From NCBI RefSeq assembly GCF_000025725.1, contig NC_013943.1:62001-126000 (forward strand): DNA of 64,000 nt, written 5' to 3'. Every line of letters begins with the position of its first letter. The stretch's first letter is position 1. This stretch comes from Denitrovibrio acetiphilus DSM 12809. GTDB lineage: Bacteria > Chrysiogenota > Deferribacteres > Deferribacterales > Geovibrionaceae. Positions 53,756 to 62,437 of this stretch are shown here, piece after piece. The translations under genes and the position numbers were made by a program. Below the pieces are notes generated by a model. That model did not search any database, was not told the origin of the DNA, and was given only the letters and a program-made list of their open reading frames with translations.

Positions 53756-55756
53756 ATGTTTACCAAGTTTACTAAAAAAGCAATCATCCTTATCTTTCTA
53801 ATGATTTTATCGTTATCACTACCGGCTTATGCTGATAATGCGGAAGTGTTTGCGGAGCCTCTGGGACTTGACAGTGTCCTCAGAGAATCAGTTGCAACAA
53901 ACCCTCAGATACTTGAAGCTCTTGAAGTTTATGAAGCTCTTATTCATGAAGTCCGGGCTGCGGAAAGCGGATATAAGCCAAATGTCGGAACAGAGTTTTC
54001 TGTCGGACAGCAATATACAAACGGAGCCTCTTCCGACGAGGAAGAGCGTGACCTGACAGCTAGTTCTGCCGGGATATATGCCAGACAGAATCTATTTAAC
54101 GGTTTTGGAACTGATAATTATGTAAACGAAACAAAAGCGAGACTGATGGCAGCCGCCTATGACGTGCTGGATGTTGCCAACAATGTTTTCATCGAAACAG
54201 CAGAAGCATATATCGGCGTTCTGAAAGAACGTGAGCTACTCACCCTTGCAGAAGAGAATGTTGAGACTCAGGGGCAGATTCTTAAACAGATTATAGAGAA
54301 GACTGAGGCCGGATTCGGCAGAAAATCGGATATGCTGAATTCAGAATCCAGAGTAGCCCTCGCGAGAGCAAATGTCATCTCCCAGCAGCAGAACCTCAAA
54401 CAGGCTGTGGTTAAATTTCATAAACAGCTCGGACGTTTTGCCGCCCCAGACAAGTTTCTTGATCCTTCTAAAACATATGAATTTGCCGGAAATGTTGACG
54501 ATGTAGTTGAGCTTGCATTTAACAATTATCCTGCCCTTAATGTTGCGAAGTATAATGTCCTTACCAAAAAATTTGCAATGAAACGTACTCAGGCTCTTTA
54601 TTACCCTACGCTTGACGCCGAACTTCGTGCGGATTACGACAATAATACTGGTGGTGACGAGGGTGACACGAAAAGCTACAGTGCCATGCTTTATCTGAAG
54701 TACAACTTTTATGACGGTGGGCAGCGAAGTGCAGAAAAGAAGAAAAATTACCGTGAGATACTGAAGGAACACCAGAGAACGTACATCGAAAGGCGTAATC
54801 TGAATGAGTCCGTCAGGCTCGCCTGGAACATAAAAGAGTCAGAAGATAAAAAATATGAGTATCTGAAGAACCACGTTGGACTCAGTACGAAAACCCTTGA
54901 GGCATTTAAAGAGGAATATCAGCTCGGTAGAAGGACACTTCCAGAGCTTTTGGATGTGGAAAATGAAAATCAGGCAGCTAAAACTGCTTTTGTTGAATCT
55001 AAGTATGCCTCTTTAATTGCTTATTACAGAGTTATGTTTGTGACCGGCGTTCTGCTTTACGAACACCGCACGGATCTTTTTGAGAAAGTTGGTCTTACTG
55101 ATAACAAGATTAAGCTCCCTGACCTTTCAGATTATCAGGTCATGGAAAATAATAGAGATGCCGACACAGTAAAAGATACTATGGATCAGTGTGATAACTC
55201 AGTGTTAACTGAAACAGGTGTCTATGGATGCGCTGATAATGAAAATGTCAGCATAGGCTACAGTGCACCGGAGAATGCTCCTGCGTATATCAAGCCTAAA
55301 GAATCAGCACTCACTCTCGAACCGGAATCATTAGGGGAGCCGGTTTCTCTCGGAGAGCCTGAAAAGGTTGATTCGATGGGGTTTGATGCCAGTGCAGAGG
55401 AGCAGACAGTCAATTTCAGCAATATACTTTTTAAGCTGAATTCGTCTAAACTTACAAAAGACTCTTACCCTGTTGTGGATGCCATAGCGGCAAAGCTTAA
55501 AACTATGGAAGGCTACACTCTTCAGATTGTTGGACACACTGACTCAAGCGGCAATGCAGAATTTAATAAAAAACTATCAGCAGAAAGGGCAAAATCAGTT
55601 TATAATAGATTAGTTAGGAAGGGTGTTCCTAAAGAAAATATCACAACATATGGTAAAGGTGAGGAGCTCCCTCTCTACAGCAACGCAACCAGAGATGGAA
55701 GAGTAAAGAACAGAAGGATTGAGTTCAAGCTCACGCACCTGAAACAACATGAATAA
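53756..55756 (+). CDS. TolC-type outer-membrane channel fused to an OmpA domain (LapE-like)
   Basis: The 666-residue protein has a signal peptide (cleavage near residue 26, PAYA). Residues about 35-460 are a TolC/AggA-type channel ('ESVATNPQILEALEVYEAL', 'YARQNLFNGFGTDNYVNE', 'YNFYDGGQRSAEKKKNYR', 'LGRRTLPELLDVENENQAA'). A linker with a thrombospondin-3-like stretch ('DADTVKDTMDQCDNSVL ... YGC') leads to a C-terminal OmpA peptidoglycan-binding domain ('IVGHTDSSGNAEFNKKLSAE', 'KNRRIEFKL'). It forms the outer-membrane exit of the secretion system. The fusion would tether the channel to the wall. Confidence 0.88.
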   Translation: MFTKFTKKAIILIFLMILSLSLPAYADNAEVFAEPLGLDSVLRESVATNPQILEALEVYEALIHEVRAAESGYKPNVGTEFSVGQQYTNGASSDEEERDLTASSAGIYARQNLFNGFGTDNYVNETKARLMAAAYDVLDVANNVFIETAEAYIGVLKERELLTLAEENVETQGQILKQIIEKTEAGFGRKSDMLNSESRVALARANVISQQQNLKQAVVKFHKQLGRFAAPDKFLDPSKTYEFAGNVDDVVELAFNNYPALNVAKYNVLTKKFAMKRTQALYYPTLDAELRADYDNNTGGDEGDTKSYSAMLYLKYNFYDGGQRSAEKKKNYREILKEHQRTYIERRNLNESVRLAWNIKESEDKKYEYLKNHVGLSTKTLEAFKEEYQLGRRTLPELLDVENENQAAKTAFVESKYASLIAYYRVMFVTGVLLYEHRTDLFEKVGLTDNKIKLPDLSDYQVMENNRDADTVKDTMDQCDNSVLTETGVYGCADNENVSIGYSAPENAPAYIKPKESALTLEPESLGEPVSLGEPEKVDSMGFDASAEEQTVNFSNILFKLNSSKLTKDSYPVVDAIAAKLKTMEGYTLQIVGHTDSSGNAEFNKKLSAERAKSVYNRLVRKGVPKENITTYGKGEELPLYSNATRDGRVKNRRIEFKLTHLKQHE

Positions 55757-55759
55757 TTT

Positions 55760-56419
55760 ATGTCAAAAATAAATGGTTTCGCTGTTTTATGTTTTATTAT
55801 TATGCTCTGTACTGTCGGTATCAGTTCTCAGGGTAGATTTTACCTGCCTGATGATGGTCTGAAGTCATATGCAGGTAAATACGGCGAGCTTGCGGTTAAG
55901 CGTCTTGATGGACTGCTGAGCCTTATGGACGGACTAATCGCGGAAAGTGAAGACAGTAAGGTTATAAAAGTTAACAGCTTTTATAACCAGATCCCCTATC
56001 GCTCAGACAAAAAGATTTGGGGAAAAGAGGACTACTGGGCTAGCCGCCTGGAGTTTCTTGGAGTTGGAATGGGCGATTGCGAGGATTATGCTGTTGCGAA
56101 ATTCCTCACTCTTCTGCAACTGGATGTCCCGCAGGAGAAGCTTTTTCTCACCTATGTTAAGGCGAAAGGATATGCCGATGAAGCGCATATGGTTGTCACG
56201 TATTATAAAAAACCCGGCACCGTCCCTTTTGTTCTGGATAACTATAACAAGCAGATTCTTCCGGCAACGCAACGTAACGACCTTGTGCCTATTTACAGCT
56301 TTACTGCCAACGACCTCTTTCTGCAGAAACAGAAGGGGCTTGGTAAGAGAGTTGATCCGTCACAATCAAAAAATGTCGGCAGGCTTAAGTCTGTTGATCT
56401 TGAGATATTGAAGAGGTAG
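55760..56419 (+). CDS. lapG: LapG-like periplasmic cysteine protease
   Basis: LapG cleaves the N-terminus of surface adhesins when not held by LapD. The 219-residue protein has an N-terminal hydrophobic signal and the bacterial transglutaminase-like cysteine protease triad: Cys107 in 'GMGDCEDYAVAKF', His143 in 'EAHMVVTY' and Asp160 in 'FVLDNYN'. It lies three bases after the TolC-OmpA gene and five before lapD, the same protease-receptor pairing as in Pseudomonas. Calcium-binding acidic residues near the Cys are present (DCED). Confidence 0.9.
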   Translation: MSKINGFAVLCFIIMLCTVGISSQGRFYLPDDGLKSYAGKYGELAVKRLDGLLSLMDGLIAESEDSKVIKVNSFYNQIPYRSDKKIWGKEDYWASRLEFLGVGMGDCEDYAVAKFLTLLQLDVPQEKLFLTYVKAKGYADEAHMVVTYYKKPGTVPFVLDNYNKQILPATQRNDLVPIYSFTANDLFLQKQKGLGKRVDPSQSKNVGRLKSVDLEILKR

Positions 56420-56423
56420 AGAG

Positions 56424-58367
56424 ATGACATTGTTCAGGCAAATTCAGATTTTTGTGACACTGCTTTTAGTTGTCATGCTCATTGTGGTTCTGAAAATTAA
56501 TTTTGACAGTACGAGAGAATTTGTAAGGACACAGCTTTATTCTGATGCGAAAAATACGGCTAACTCCCTCTCTCTGTCCCTCAGCACCGTAGCCGGTGAC
56601 GAAGCGGCAATGGTTACGATGATGCGGGCAATGTTCGACGGCGGGTATTATGAGGAGATAAAGCTCATAAATGCCGAAGGAAAAGTCATTGGGGATATTT
56701 CACAGAAACCTGTGATCGAAGGAGTTCCTGGTTTTTTTATACGTATGGTTGACTTTGAGAATATACCTGCCGAGGCTCAAATATCCAGCGGTTGGACAAT
56801 ATTTGGCACTCTGAGCGTCAAAGGTCATCCGGGACTTTCATACATTCGTCTATGGGATTCATTTAAATACCTCGGCATGTGGTTTGTCATAATAGGTTTG
56901 TCTGCTCTAGCTGCGACTCATATGGCACTCAGGCTGATTTTTCGTCCTCTTGGGGCGGTTCGGGAGCAGGCTGCCGCAATCGAGAATAACGAATTTATCA
57001 TAAACAAAAATATACCCTCCACGCCGGAGATGAAACAGGTTGTCATAACCATGAACTCTATGGTCTCAAAGGCGCAGGCAATATATAACAGAGAAATTGA
57101 AACTCTCAAGAACTATCAGGAGCTTTTGTATAAAGATCAGTCGACTGGGCTTTTCAACAGGAAATACTTTGTAAGCCAGCTCAGTGCGTATCTTCAGGCT
57201 GAGAACGAAAATTCTTCAGGAGAGGTGGTTATACTCTCTTTTGAAGGGATGGAGGATGCTGCGGCTGAAGCCGGTCATAGTGTTATATCAAAGCTTTTCT
57301 CTTTTTGTGTGGATGAGATGCAGAGTATATCAGGAAAAGTCCCAAACTCTGTTCCTGCCTGTTTGAACAATAGAGAATTTGCACTTATTCTGCCTGGCTG
57401 TGATACAGCGGAGGCACTTGTTATGGCAAAAACAGCAACAGATAATATCAACAACTATATCAAATCAATAGAGGAAATTAAAGACATCCTCGGTGTATTC
57501 TGCGGTGCTGCCTCGTACCGGTATGATGAGGATATGGGGAAGGTGCTTTCTAAGGTAGACTATGCTGTTACTCTGGCCAAAAGTAAAGAGTCAGGAGCTG
57601 TGGAAAGATATGTTGATGACGGTTCTCATATTGTGCTTGGAAAGATGGAGTGGAAGCATATGATCGAAACCGCTCTTGGGGAAGACAGGTTTATACTGAC
57701 TTCTCAGCCTGTAGTTTCCGACGGAGGAGAACTCCATCAGGAGATATACGTAAACATGGTGGACAGCGACGGCAAAGTCCAGCGGGCAGGCTTTTTTATG
57801 CCGATGGTTATCAGCCTGAATCTTGCAAACAGTCTGGATAGGTATGTTCTTGAAAAAACTGTGGATTATCTGACAGGTAACAAAGAACACACTCTTGCTA
57901 TAAATATCACAGATATGTTCCTGAATGACAGAGGGGCGTTTTCATGGTTCAGAAAGCTGCTTGTTTCAGCTAAACATCTCAGGGAGAGGTTAACTTTTGA
58001 GATCTCTGACAGCGCCATAAAGCATCACCTTGATATATGTCTGGACTTTTCAGGGCTTATAAAAGGGCTGGGGTTTACATTCGGTGTCGACAGGTTTGCC
58101 ATGTCTCAGGAATCACTGGAGAATCTTCAGCAGTTAAAACCTGACTATCTGAAAGTAGACTATGATTATCTGATAAACTCCGAAGACGGTGACGTTGCTG
58201 CAGCGCTTAAGTCATTGCAAACCATAACGGACAGTCTGGGCATCAAGCTTATAGCGACGAAAATAGATAGTGAAGAACTTCGGCAGAAACTCGAGGATAA
58301 TAATATAAAATATTTTCAAGGGCGCGGCGTTGCCGGCATAAACCCTTTGGGTAAAAATAATGAGTAA
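56424..58367 (+). CDS. lapD: LapD-like c-di-GMP receptor (degenerate GGDEF-EAL)
   Basis: The 647-residue inner-membrane protein has a helix at 8-24, a periplasmic output domain (25-145), a second helix at 150-173, a HAMP domain (174-225), a GGDEF-like domain (235-390) and an EAL-like domain (405-645). The GGDEF site reads LNNREF (314-319) and the EAL signature reads EIYVNM (440-445), so neither cyclase nor phosphodiesterase activity is expected. In the Lap model c-di-GMP binding to the EAL domain makes the periplasmic domain sequester LapG. It overlaps the exporter gene by eight bases. Confidence 0.88.
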   Translation: MTLFRQIQIFVTLLLVVMLIVVLKINFDSTREFVRTQLYSDAKNTANSLSLSLSTVAGDEAAMVTMMRAMFDGGYYEEIKLINAEGKVIGDISQKPVIEGVPGFFIRMVDFENIPAEAQISSGWTIFGTLSVKGHPGLSYIRLWDSFKYLGMWFVIIGLSALAATHMALRLIFRPLGAVREQAAAIENNEFIINKNIPSTPEMKQVVITMNSMVSKAQAIYNREIETLKNYQELLYKDQSTGLFNRKYFVSQLSAYLQAENENSSGEVVILSFEGMEDAAAEAGHSVISKLFSFCVDEMQSISGKVPNSVPACLNNREFALILPGCDTAEALVMAKTATDNINNYIKSIEEIKDILGVFCGAASYRYDEDMGKVLSKVDYAVTLAKSKESGAVERYVDDGSHIVLGKMEWKHMIETALGEDRFILTSQPVVSDGGELHQEIYVNMVDSDGKVQRAGFFMPMVISLNLANSLDRYVLEKTVDYLTGNKEHTLAINITDMFLNDRGAFSWFRKLLVSAKHLRERLTFEISDSAIKHHLDICLDFSGLIKGLGFTFGVDRFAMSQESLENLQQLKPDYLKVDYDYLINSEDGDVAAALKSLQTITDSLGIKLIATKIDSEELRQKLEDNNIKYFQGRGVAGINPLGKNNE

Positions 58368-60507
58368 TAAAAGCGTTCAGACAGACCCGCTGATGCTGTG
58401 TCTGGTTCTGCTTACAAAGCTGAACAACAGACCGGCAACCGCAGAATCCTTGTCACATGGGCTGCCTATGGATCCATCTGCTGTGCGTCAGCAGCTTTTC
58501 AGTACGGAAGGCGGGAAAGCGAATTTTTCACGTGCTGCAGCCAGAGCCGGTTTTAATACGAGTCTGGTTAAGCGCAAGCTGAAACATATACCTTCTGTGG
58601 TACTGCCTGCGATACTCCTTCTGAAAGATGATAGTGCCTGTGTTGTTACTGCAATAGATAAAGAATCCGGTACTGCTGAGATAATAGTTCCGCAGATGGA
58701 TGATGTTGCTCAGTCTATCACTTTGGACAAGCTTAACGAAGAATATCTTGGATATGCTTTTTTTCTGAAAAAGATATATCTGGATAACAGACCCGAATAT
58801 CAGGAGAAAGAGTTAACCTCTGATAAAAACTGGTTTTTCGGGACATTGTGGCGTTTTAAAGGCATTTATGCAAATGTGATTCTCGCTTCTCTGATAGTCA
58901 ACATCTTTGTTATCGTCGGTCCGCTTTTTACTATGAATGTTTATGACAGGATCATTCCGCACAATGCTGTGGACACCCTGTGGGTACTAGCTGTCGGGAT
59001 GTTTATTATATATTCCTTCGACCTGCTGCTTAAATTTATCAGAACGTACTTTCTTGAAGTGATAGCAAAGAAGAGTGACGTTATCCTGTCTTCGAAAATA
59101 TTTGAGCAGGCTATGAACATCAGGATGAGAGAAAAGCCCCGTTCTGTGGGTTCATTTGCAAACAACATCAAAGATTTTGACAGTATCAGATCGTTTTATT
59201 CCTCCAGTGCTCTTGTGGCTTTTATTGATTTCCCTTTTGTCATAATATTTTTACTGGTCATATCATACGTTGCGGGCATACTTGTATTTGTCCCTATCGC
59301 CATAATCATACTTATCCTCGGCTACAGCCTTATTGTCCGTAAGCCGCTTCAGAGAAGCATTGAAAGCACATACGAATCTTCCGCCAGAAAGAATGGACTG
59401 CTCATTGAGTCCCTTTCTAATCTGGAAAACATAAAGGCATTCAATGCCAGCAGCAATGTACAGTGGTCGTGGGAAGAGCGCACCGGAGATATCGCAGGCA
59501 AAAGCCTTCGCTCCAGAATGCTGTCCAGTTCGCTTTCCACTGTATCAGTCTTTTTTACTCAGCTAGCCACAGTTGCGATAGTTGTTGTTGGAGTTTACCT
59601 TATCCGTGAAGGCGAGCTGACAATGGGTGGTCTGATAGCTACTGTTATTCTTTCATCCAGAACAATATCCCCCATGTCGCAGGTTGCGGCACTTCTTTCC
59701 AACTATCAGCAGATGAAGACATCGCTTAATGCGCTTAACGACCTTATGGAAAAAGATGTTGAGAGACCTGAAAAGAAAAGCTTTCTGTCCAGACCTGTTT
59801 TTAAGGGCTCCATCGAATTTAAAAATGTTAGTTTCAGCTACCCTGATGAAACTAACAGTGCTTTGGATGGTATCAGCCTCAGATTTAATCCTAAAGAGAG
59901 GGTCGGGGTTATAGGTCAGGTAGGGTCGGGGAAGTCTACACTGAGCAAGCTTATTTTGGGGCTTTATGAGCCGACAGAAGGCGCTGTCTTTGTAGACGGC
60001 ATAGACATACAACAGATGGATCCTGCGGATCTCAGGCATAACATAAGTTATGTGCCACAGGATATTACGCTGTTTTCCGGCAGTGTGCGTGAGAATATCG
60101 TTTTCAAAGCACCTCAGTCGGATGACGAAGAGATTATCGAAGCAGTCAAGATAGGCAACGTAAACTCATTTACAGACAGACACCCCATGGGGCTGGATCT
60201 CTGGGTTGGTGAACGGGGTGCAAATATTTCAGGCGGTCAGCGGCAGGCTGTGGGGGTAGCAAGAGCAATGCTTACAGACAGTCCGATCGTTCTGCTGGAT
60301 GAACCTACAAATTCTATGGATTTTACTTCCGAAGCGAAGGTTATAGAAAACCTTAAAAAAGCTACGGAGGGGAAAACAACTATAGTTATCACACATAAAC
60401 CGTCTATCCTTGCCATAGTGGACAGACTTATTGTTATGGACAGTGGAAAGGTTGTTATGGACGGACCTAAAAACGAGGTATTGCAGAAATTGGGTAAAGG
60501 CAAATGA
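58360..60507 (+). CDS. lapB: Type 1 secretion ABC exporter (LapB-like)
   Basis: The 715-residue exporter has an N-terminal C39-peptidase-like domain (about 10-140) without the catalytic Cys-His pair, so it is of the non-cleaving kind. Then come six transmembrane helices (about 165-440) and an ATPase domain: Walker A 'GQVGSGKST', 'PQDITLFSGS', signature 'ISGGQRQAV', Walker B 'IVLLDEPTNSMD' and His in 'ITHKP'. Such exporters move RTX-type adhesins directly out of the cell with an adaptor and TolC. It overlaps lapC by four bases. Confidence 0.92.
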   Translation: MSNKSVQTDPLMLCLVLLTKLNNRPATAESLSHGLPMDPSAVRQQLFSTEGGKANFSRAAARAGFNTSLVKRKLKHIPSVVLPAILLLKDDSACVVTAIDKESGTAEIIVPQMDDVAQSITLDKLNEEYLGYAFFLKKIYLDNRPEYQEKELTSDKNWFFGTLWRFKGIYANVILASLIVNIFVIVGPLFTMNVYDRIIPHNAVDTLWVLAVGMFIIYSFDLLLKFIRTYFLEVIAKKSDVILSSKIFEQAMNIRMREKPRSVGSFANNIKDFDSIRSFYSSSALVAFIDFPFVIIFLLVISYVAGILVFVPIAIIILILGYSLIVRKPLQRSIESTYESSARKNGLLIESLSNLENIKAFNASSNVQWSWEERTGDIAGKSLRSRMLSSSLSTVSVFFTQLATVAIVVVGVYLIREGELTMGGLIATVILSSRTISPMSQVAALLSNYQQMKTSLNALNDLMEKDVERPEKKSFLSRPVFKGSIEFKNVSFSYPDETNSALDGISLRFNPKERVGVIGQVGSGKSTLSKLILGLYEPTEGAVFVDGIDIQQMDPADLRHNISYVPQDITLFSGSVRENIVFKAPQSDDEEIIEAVKIGNVNSFTDRHPMGLDLWVGERGANISGGQRQAVGVARAMLTDSPIVLLDEPTNSMDFTSEAKVIENLKKATEGKTTIVITHKPSILAIVDRLIVMDSGKVVMDGPKNEVLQKLGKGK

Positions 60508-61856
60508 CATCAAATACAAACGGCTCAAAAAAGAAAAGCAGGGTTTCCTCCAAAGATATCGCTTATATGAAAAGCCTGAATGCCGCTGTGCTCCAGAAGA
60601 GTCCGGTTAAGATGTCGCTGGTATTATACATAATAGCTTTTCTGACATGCGCATCTATTATCTGGGCGAATATTGCAGAAGTGGACGAAATGACAAGGGG
60701 TATGGGGCGTGTTATCCCTTCACGTCAAATACAGATTATACAGAATCTTGAAGGCGGTATCATAGAGAAGATAAATGTTCAGGAAGGGGAACATGTTAAG
60801 AAAGGGCAGGTTCTCGTGACTATAGATGATACCGGGTTTGGCAGTTCATATAATGAGAGCAGATCGAAAGAGGACGAGCTGCGTGCCAAGCTGTCCAGAC
60901 TGCGTGCAGAATCAGAAGGTTCAAAGTTTAATCCTGACCCCGATGTGCATAAAAACTTTCCGGAACTTATAGATGAAGAGAGAAAGCTGTATAAAACTAA
61001 TCTTGAGAGACGTGACAGTGAGATTGCAACGCTGAAAGAACGTACGCGCCAGCGGGAAATAGAACTTCAGGATGCCAGGGCAAAGCTCAAAAATCTGAAG
61101 GCAAGCCGTGAACTGATATTGAGAGAGATGAGACTGACGAAACCTATGTTTGACAGAGGGCTTGTGTCCGAAGTTGAATATCTGCAATTACAGCAGAAAG
61201 AGCTTGAAAACAAAACTGATATAGAATCTCTGGAAAAATCTCTGGGGTCTATACAGTCTCAGATAATTGAAGCAAAAAGTATGATAGACGAAACTTATGC
61301 CAAATACAAAAGTGTTGCTCAGGAAGAGCTCAATGAAACTCTTGCGGAGCTTAAAAGGGTTAGCACTACTCAGGTAGCCATGAAAGACAGGGTTAACAGG
61401 GCACAGGTCAGAAGTCCCGTTGACGGCACAGTAAACCAGCTTCTGGTGAACACCGTAGGGGGTGTTGTTAAACCGGGGATGGACATACTGGAGATCGTTC
61501 CTGACGACGATGCGCTACTGGTGGAGGCTAAGATAAAGCCTTCAGATATTGCCTTTATTTATCCCGGACTAAGAGCAGTGGTGAAACTTACCGCTTATGA
61601 TTTTGCTATATACGGCGGGCTTGACGGCGAAGTCGTGCACATTAGTGCCGACACCATTATTGACGAGAAGCAGGAGCATTATTACCTTGTAAGGATAAAA
61701 ACAGACAAGAGCTATCTGGGTGATGATGAGGATAAAAAGGACATCATGGTTGGTATGACCGTCATGGCGGATATTGTTACAGGTAAGAAAACTGTTATGC
61801 AATACCTCATGAAGCCTATCCTGCGGGCAAAATATAATGCTTTAAGGGAGAGATAA
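60504..61856 (+). CDS. lapC: Type 1 secretion membrane-fusion adaptor (LapC/HlyD-like)
   Basis: The 450-residue adaptor has one transmembrane helix near residues 36-56 followed by 'RGMGRVIPSRQIQIIQNLEG' and 'VQEGEHVKKGQVLVTIDDT' (lipoyl half), a long coiled coil (about 115-290) and the second lipoyl half with 'RSPVDGTVNQLLVNTVGGVV', then the beta-barrel. It links the LapB exporter to the TolC-OmpA channel. The regulator gene starts on the last base of its stop codon. Confidence 0.93.
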   Translation: MTSNTNGSKKKSRVSSKDIAYMKSLNAAVLQKSPVKMSLVLYIIAFLTCASIIWANIAEVDEMTRGMGRVIPSRQIQIIQNLEGGIIEKINVQEGEHVKKGQVLVTIDDTGFGSSYNESRSKEDELRAKLSRLRAESEGSKFNPDPDVHKNFPELIDEERKLYKTNLERRDSEIATLKERTRQREIELQDARAKLKNLKASRELILREMRLTKPMFDRGLVSEVEYLQLQQKELENKTDIESLEKSLGSIQSQIIEAKSMIDETYAKYKSVAQEELNETLAELKRVSTTQVAMKDRVNRAQVRSPVDGTVNQLLVNTVGGVVKPGMDILEIVPDDDALLVEAKIKPSDIAFIYPGLRAVVKLTAYDFAIYGGLDGEVVHISADTIIDEKQEHYYLVRIKTDKSYLGDDEDKKDIMVGMTVMADIVTGKKTVMQYLMKPILRAKYNALRER

Positions 61857-62437
61857 TGGTTTTTATCATCACAACGGATATGTTTGTACAGGAAAGGTTT
61901 ACAAAGGTTTTTGGTGATGGCGTTGTGCGCTGTTTCAAAAGCTATGCAGACATGATTTCTGAATGTGTGCCGAACAATGAAGATGTCGTTGCTGCGGATA
62001 TGCTTAAAACTGAACCCTTTGACCTTACTAAACTGAAATGCTCTGTGCTGGCTCTGGTTGGAACTCCTAAATACGAAGAGGCTGTGCAGCTTATGCGGTT
62101 CGGTGTAAGGGGGTACGGCAACAGGCTGATGCTGCCTGCCAATTTCGTTATGGCAGTGAATGCACTCAGCTCTGGTCAGGTATGGATGCCTCCGGAGATC
62201 ATTAACAGACTCATTAATGCTATACCTGAAAATGTAAACAGTAACGGGGCTGGGGATATGTCCATGCTGTCTGAAAGAGAAATGGAAGTCGCACGTTATG
62301 TTGCGCAGGGGCAGTCAAATATTGAGATTGCTGATAATATGGACATAACCGTACGTACAGTAAAAGCGCATCTTACATCAATATTCAATAAAACCGGACT
62401 CCGTGACAGGGTCGCTCTGGCTCTCCGCCTGAAATAA
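61856..62437 (+). CDS. LuxR-type regulator with degenerate receiver
   Basis: The 193-residue protein ends in a LuxR/FixJ HTH: 'LSEREMEVARYVAQGQSNIE' and 'VRTVKAHLTSIFNKTGLRDR'. The N-terminal 125 residues resemble a receiver fold but I cannot find the phospho-acceptor Asp in a standard position or a cognate kinase, so control by another signal is likely. It is the last gene of the operon, overlapping lapC by one base, which suggests feedback on adhesin secretion. Confidence 0.85.
   Translation: MVFIITTDMFVQERFTKVFGDGVVRCFKSYADMISECVPNNEDVVAADMLKTEPFDLTKLKCSVLALVGTPKYEEAVQLMRFGVRGYGNRLMLPANFVMAVNALSSGQVWMPPEIINRLINAIPENVNSNGAGDMSMLSEREMEVARYVAQGQSNIEIADNMDITVRTVKAHLTSIFNKTGLRDRVALALRLK

Follow-up and report, generated by a model that had tools for sequence, protein, structure and literature searches.

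Why an export channel of the TolC type should carry a peptidoglycan-binding-type domain on its own chain is the question raised by this locus. Within the window, by which we mean the whole 64-kb stretch of DNA analyzed, a frame of 666 codons on the forward strand (53756-55756) runs from ATG to TAA without internal stops, and AGGGGAGC lies immediately 5' of the ATG. The frame encodes a LapE-type TolC channel and an OmpA domain in one chain of 666 aa, as identified with Pfam, NCBIfam, the predicted model, and Foldseek. The sequence-only reading of this DNA had placed TolC and OmpA in one frame, and the codon count, the profile matches, and the predicted folds show this to be true.

The chain begins with a predicted signal peptide of approximately residues 1-27 (53756-53836), whose cleavage site is a reading of the sequence and whose helix spans residues 3-20 in the model. 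The protein has no lipobox Cys, its only two Cys being Cys479 and Cys492. The channel domain covers residues 38-434 (53867-55057) and comprises two beta-hairpins and long helices; the NCBIfam model TIGR01844 (type_I_sec_TolC) matched residues 36-436 with 240.6 bits against a cut-off of 225.15, and the Pfam model OEP (PF02321) matched in two stretches at 1e-39. A linker follows at residues 445-548 (55088-55399), with a net charge of -15 and mostly predicted to be disordered. It includes a motif with both Cys (55157-55231) that resembles one found at other lap loci in OmpA proteins encoded on their own. The linker had earlier been described as thrombospondin-3-like and acidic; the acidity and the two-Cys motif hold, but the Pfam model TSP_3 (PF02412) gave no match on the window protein at E 0.001, and "TSP3-like" is used here as a label read from the sequence at the level of the motif. 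The OmpA domain occupies residues 549-661 (55400-55738), and PF00691 matched completely (profile positions 1-98 of 98) at residues 558-653, scoring 75.6 bits (cut-off 27.2; 4.1e-21). Within it, the alignment shows Asp596 and Arg611 intact at a spacing of 15 (55541-55588), which, by A. baumannii OmpA, we take to be the pair that binds the peptidoglycan peptide.

An AlphaFold2 model built from 20 rows showed a TolC fold at residues 38-444, pLDDT below 50 at residues 450-540, and an OmpA fold at residues 549-661, with a mean pLDDT of 79.9 and a pTM of 0.59. The structure prediction that had been suggested as a check therefore yielded the two folds joined by a low-confidence linker. Each protomer in the model has two beta-hairpins and long helices, and Foldseek matched it to TolC itself (1ek9, TMt 0.77) and to other solved TolCs (7ng9 at E 2.6e-19), as well as to OmpA-like domains such as those of PA0833, YiaD, and OprF (5u1h). 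PADLOC matched the OmpA part alone, to MotB-like ZorB models. Four other TolC-like frames were found in the window's genome, and all of them, at 440-476 codons, are too short for an added OmpA.

The fused gene heads a lap operon that continues with lapG, lapD, lapB, lapC, and luxR, the five downstream genes each overlapping the one before or starting no more than 4 bases after it, all on the forward strand. lapG (55760-56419) encodes a predicted periplasmic cysteine protease (PF06035, 55 bits) in which Cys107, His143, and Asp160, presumably the catalytic residues, are present, and lapD (56424-58367) encodes a predicted receptor of the c-di-GMP type with LapD_MoxY_N, GGDEF, and EAL domains in Pfam. 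Against the NCBI equivalog models, LapG scored 166 bits (NF045674, cut-off 320) and LapD 326.8 bits (NF045673, cut-off 1020), both below the cut-off, and the two are homologues rather than curated equivalogs. The type I secretion ABC exporter gene lapB (58360-60507; TIGR03375, 905.6 bits against 693.1) and the gene for the HlyD-type adaptor, lapC (60504-61856; TIGR01843, 410.7 bits against 208.65), come next. The last gene encodes a LuxR-type regulator (61856-62437; PF00196, 63.9 bits), in which Pfam matched the DNA-binding part only and no receiver domain.

We then examined the conservation of this arrangement. Besides the window's own genome, 11 were read from the genus and the family, and ten of them (G001, G002, and G004-G011) encode the fusion as a single frame of 674-705 codons, G003 being the only one without it. 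A frame error or an assembly join was considered and rejected, because the genomes of the relatives hold the same single frame. The order tolC-ompA, lapG, lapD, lapB, lapC, luxR is common to these 10 relatives, and the LuxR-type regulator occupies the same place in all of them. The irregularities in the relatives' operons are a split lapB in one locus (L042) and a short lapG with a split lapB in another (L045). The named lapG locus nearest to that of the window belongs to Denitrovibrio sp. BM704 (74%). Two members of the family also carry a second type I system (L052 and L053; G011:C14 and G007:C11), whose TolC of 745-746 aa has a degenerate OmpA part, with Lys replacing Asp, and lies beside a frame of more than 2280 codons.

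Next, we searched for the adhesin. None was found within the 64-kb window with the retention-module and RTX models at E 0.001. A LapA-like frame of 3226 aa lies 2.5 Mb from the window, at about G000:C1:2637115-2646795 on the reverse strand (L040). In this genome, the models for the LapA retention module (NF033682; 71.8 bits, cut-off of 50) and for RTX (PF00353; 25.9 bits, cut-off of 23; 19.7 and under the cut-off in the whole-protein scan) matched this frame alone at E 0.001. The frame also contains a VWA domain and about 19 very similar cadherin/Big_9 repeats. Among the relatives, an adhesin of 2480-4303 aa with a retention module adjoins the operon in six of the nine stretches fetched, a tally in which G007 and G011 were left without a verdict; no adhesin was found beside the operon in the stretches read from G001 and G002. 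The retention module ends in TAAG, which we take to be the LapG site, in those six adhesins, and in TATG in the adhesin of the window's own genome.

Our preferred reading, to which we assign a probability of about 0.58, is that the OmpA part is a tether anchoring an adhesin-holding channel to the wall; from the features above we infer both the binding and the load-bearing. The sequence-only reading had likewise suggested that the fusion could anchor the channel to peptidoglycan and might fix where the adhesin is displayed; the first of these, anchoring to the wall, accounts best for the present data. The fused protein would be the outer-membrane channel, of the LapE/AggA type, for a c-di-GMP-controlled export of the adhesin. 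The C-terminal end of TolC is periplasmic in TolC structures. With three copies per channel, three OmpA domains would extend on flexible periplasmic tails of about 100 residues and would grip the peptidoglycan around each presumed trimer. The N-terminal retention module would keep the LapA-like adhesin lodged in this channel until LapG cuts the adhesin, a pull on which would be carried by the channel, and the tails would ground the channel in the wall. The adhesin is reported to be anchored in LapE by its retention module (PMC6890996), so that a pull on it should reach the channel. The equatorial region of TolC has been proposed to meet the wall (PMC13082787), and with this region near the wall and the C-terminus in the periplasm, three long-tailed OmpA domains could bind it.

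To see how OmpA is encoded at other lap loci, we scanned genomes with a LapG alignment and took the best 80 of 583 loci, ranked by likeness to the window's family. A LapE-type TolC was present within the fetched DNA in 32 of these 80 loci, and among these 32 OmpA was separate in 22, fused in five (L061, L062, L063, L076, and L095), and absent in five (L116, L119, and L122 of Aeromonas, L104, and L118). The rest of the best 80 comprised one locus with OmpA and no TolC and 47 with neither in the fetched DNA; in four of the 80, lapG itself was not recognized by our script. The separate gene lay directly downstream of tolC in 20 of the 22 cases, at distances of -32 to +17 bases, and 16 of these 20 overlap tolC by 1-32 bases in the ORF calls. 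In many loci it stands between tolC and lapG. The adjacency is also seen in plasmid records: tolC and ompA adjoin in Vibrio and Salinivibrio and are one gene apart in Marinomonas, and a record of Arcobacter cloacae holds a fusion of 860 aa, with lapG and lapD not found in the 30 kb shown. A Marinomonas algicola plasmid encodes a LapG (L056:17109-17765) with GDAED in place of the GDCED of the other seven proteins aligned, so that what is presumably the catalytic Cys is lost, and a 16.8-kb gene lies near this lapG.

Since tolC and ompA are neighbors in some genomes and one chain in others, the gene-fusion argument suggests that the two proteins act together. The product of the downstream gene is in most cases predicted to be a lipoprotein. 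A lipobox-like motif occurs in 19 of the 20 OmpA proteins encoded directly downstream and, when all 34 separate proteins are counted, in 25 (15% in shuffles). In many gammaproteobacteria, then, a separate OmpA lipoprotein encoded beside tolC would dock on the channel and do the same job, and in the fused form one polypeptide would make a lipid anchor unnecessary. The linker motif was compared in a strict form, present in 29 of the 33 linkers from fusions and in 10 of the 34 separate OmpA proteins, and in a looser form, drawn up after the strict result was known, which was present in 28 of 33 and 30 of 34, respectively (shuffles, 0.15-0.26%). The Asp/Arg pair varied as well: Ser replaces Asp in 24 of the 34 separate domains, and Arg is missing in four fused family relatives (L045, L047, L050, and L051), so that wall binding may be altered or lost there.

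A protein of the separate type has a published precedent. In the Shewanella bpf cluster, SO4321 is an OmpA-like protein encoded between aggABC and bpfG, beside the channel gene; a deletion mutant pointed to a role in biofilm formation, and the protein's part in the process was stated to be "not known" (PMC4523816). It differs from the window protein in being a separate gene product, and the Shewanella homologues sampled here, SO4321 itself not among them, mostly have a lipobox-like motif and Ser for Asp. The authors speculated that SO4321 may act in the translocation of BpfD and BpfG or in the placing of BpfA on the outer membrane (PMC4523816), which accords with an alternative in which the OmpA domain acts on the lap proteins rather than on the wall, helping to place LapG, LapD, or the adhesin. 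The loss of Asp from most separate domains and of Arg from the four fused relatives, and the position of the separate ompA between tolC and lapG, point the same way. We consider this alternative improbable, because OmpA and lapG occur apart in both directions. Among 61 distinct lapG-linked TolCs in a pooled set, many of whose loci hold a flank of 1.5 kb only, 16 were fused, 21 had a separate OmpA within 1.6 kb, and 24 had neither; conversely, of the 33 C-terminal fusions among 128 distinct TolCs, 16 had lapG within 1.6 kb and 17 did not, and one fusion outside the family (L057) has neither lapG nor lapD nearby. For the same reason, we rejected as a rule the idea that OmpA is a lapG-dependent part. 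Two points slightly lower our confidence in the tether reading: few separate proteins have the strict form of the linker motif, and other roles have been proposed for SO4321.

We next asked whether the fusion recurs beyond the family. A query built from an alignment of TolC domains, with 11 fused and 10 unfused channels and thus possibly favoring fused matches, matched 26 of 274 genomes at 1e-100 in the class of L069 (a Shewanella), 12 of 395 at 1e-80 in the phylum of L062, and 68 of 249 at 1e-40 in the phylum of L096. Among the matches listed, with at most 30 new loci read per search, C-terminal OmpA fusions were found in the class of L069 (L166, L167, L175, L177, and L178, the first two almost equal to L076), in the phylum of L062 (L203 and L143, the latter the same gene as L062), and in the phylum of L096 (L206, L208-L211, L213, L216-L218, and L221). 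For most TolCs with OmpA or SPOR tails outside the family, lapG was not found within the fetched 1.5 kb. The profile in our OmpA script was built from L041-L140, and later loci are independent of it except the repeats L141, L142, L143, and L145 and the near-copies L166 and L167; our ORF calls, which favor the longest frames, lack the TolC of a few loci (L153 and L231). In one LapE-type TolC of 612 aa, OmpA stands at the N-terminal end instead (L170:1450-3288, reverse strand).

We constructed phylogenetic trees of the TolC domains after dropping identical domains and partial or weak TolC matches. The label for a C-terminal OmpA requires eight changes, six of them forced, in a quick tree built from 128 domains; in a careful tree of 85 rows, from which 43 more long-branch or near-duplicate rows had been dropped, it requires seven, six of them forced by starred branches. 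These changes are gains or losses, and we do not claim that many independent gains. The window's clade on the careful tree comprises 11 fused rows with support of 100/100. Nested inside this family clade are the TolCs of L062 and L063, from metagenome-assembled genomes named Desulforapulum and Desulfobacteraceae, which hold lap operons of the window's type (the L063 contig ends in lapB); the nesting suggests either transfer between phyla or mis-binned contigs. The idea that the fusion is an isolated oddity is not borne out, as it is the rule in the family and recurs in other phyla. It is the norm in the close family (10 of 11 genomes) and not among lapG-linked TolCs in general.

This recurrence also bears on plain domain joining, in which a neighboring ompA became joined to tolC with a function no greater than that of the separate gene. 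Where ompA is a separate gene downstream, it overlaps tolC (16 of 20 cases) or almost abuts it, so fusion would be an easy step. However, the fusion has been retained in 10 of 11 family genomes, its label changes several times on the tree, and joining of this kind is in part compatible with the tether reading itself. As a competing explanation, we regard it as very improbable.

As a control, we compared LapE-type channels with channels of the NodT type. OmpA was found in the same chain in six of 30 LapE-type matches listed from the class of L069 and in none of 143 NodT-type matches judged (Fisher p 1.7e-5). The NodT control, which covers OmpA and not SPOR, drew on 146 matches listed from that class (185 genomes). 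Of these, 123 frames of less than 590 codons were judged too short from their length alone; the longer frames numbered 23, of which 20 were fetched and contained no OmpA and the other three were left out (counting these three as fused gives p 9e-4). In 185 gammaproteobacterial genomes of the same class, the neutral family TIGR01844 returned, among the matches listed, seven frames of at least 590 codons. Three of them carry OmpA (L166, L167, and L175), two carry SPOR (L271 and L272), one has no added Pfam domain (L270), and one showed no TolC frame in the ORF call (L273). These matches thus include at least three OmpA fusions, all already known, which supports the view that TolC at large rarely carries OmpA. 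The earlier statement that most LapE/TolC proteins lack this domain therefore holds for TolC at large, but at lapG loci OmpA is the usual neighbor, separate or fused in 22 + 5 of the 32 TolC-holding loci among the best 80 of 583.

SPOR, a wall-binding fold unrelated to OmpA, was found at the C-terminus above the Pfam cut-off in three whole TolC proteins (L155, L186, and L187). In three others (L149, L154, and L160) it exceeded the cut-off only as a tail fragment, and in L151, labeled "SPOR" in the trees, it scored 14.2 bits and lay under the cut-off. The LapE-type profile gave low scores for L271 and L272; because these two carry SPOR outside the LapE type, we rejected the idea that SPOR tails are special to adhesin export. 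OmpA tails, in the samples examined, are special to adhesin export. Several TolCs carry other additions. Three LapE-type TolCs beside lapG/lapD (L232, L233, and L234) have an extra N-terminal region of 136-165 aa, SPOR-like in one of the three and below the Pfam cut-off; a TolC of 867 aa (L193:244-2847, reverse strand) is fused to a BBP2_2 beta-barrel porin domain and adjoins a second TolC gene; and of two TolCs of 636-637 aa, one (L201) ends in an NTF2-like domain, Cds6_C (PF24125), and the other (L202) looks similar.

These controls are relevant to another explanation, in which the OmpA part stabilizes or positions the channel during assembly, setting the height of TolC through the wall without bearing load. 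The model for such a role is YbjP, the lipoprotein partner of E. coli TolC, which binds the periplasmic face of TolC and whose hold on peptidoglycan may, in the authors' view, not be avid (PMC13082787). YbjP resembles the window's tail in giving the TolC trimer an extra outer-membrane anchor; unlike the tail, it is a separate protein, and no mention is made of an OmpA domain in it (PMC13082787). The presence of wall-binding SPOR tails on TolCs outside the LapE type fits an assembly role, but OmpA is fused to some LapE-type channels and was absent from all 143 NodT matches judged, and the window's OmpA domain retains its Asp/Arg pair. An assembly role is possible but rather unlikely. The tether reading draws on the domains and their predicted folds, the intact Asp596/Arg611, the lap operon, the adhesin in the genome, and the recurrence. 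Counting against it are the losses of Arg or Asp in relatives, the occurrence of OmpA independently of lapG, the SPOR tails outside the LapE type, and the TATG of the genome's own adhesin.

Compared with known systems, the locus consists of ordinary parts, and it is their recurrent joining that is informative. LapE of Pseudomonas and AggA of Shewanella resemble the window protein in having a TIGR01844 channel, an operon with lapG, lapD, lapB, and lapC, and a LapA-like adhesin in the genome. LapE is TolC alone, and the sampled Shewanella TolCs, at 469-485 aa, are likewise TolC alone, whereas in the window protein the OmpA domain is fused. OmpA, OprF, and Pal also carry an OmpA-type domain on a membrane-anchored protein, but their membrane part is an eight-stranded barrel or a lipid and not a TolC channel. 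The TolCs with OmpA or SPOR tails outside the family share with the window protein the union of TolC and a peptidoglycan-binding-type domain in one chain. Our searches of the open-licence literature listed no report of TolC fused to OmpA or to SPOR; domain-architecture databases may well list such proteins. In a large review of tripartite systems (PMC8277102; first 300,000 characters), the term "OmpA" does not occur, nor does it in two papers of 2026, one dealing with Lap-like regulation and the other with TolC-YbjP.

Because LapA-type adhesins are lodged in their export channel, something should keep that channel from being pulled out, and the fusion is a direct candidate for the part that holds it against the pull. 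It also offers a mechanism for SO4321, the Shewanella OmpA-like protein. TolC channels have gained tails of two unrelated wall-binding folds, OmpA and SPOR. Tentatively, and with somewhat less than even confidence, we suggest that adhesin-type I secretion systems may commonly include a fourth part that has been overlooked, a peptidoglycan tether taking the form of a separate OmpA lipoprotein in Shewanella, Vibrio, Photobacterium, and Colwellia, of an OmpA domain at either end of the channel, or of SPOR. The channel would then be a load-bearing structure, and this would be the role of SO4321.
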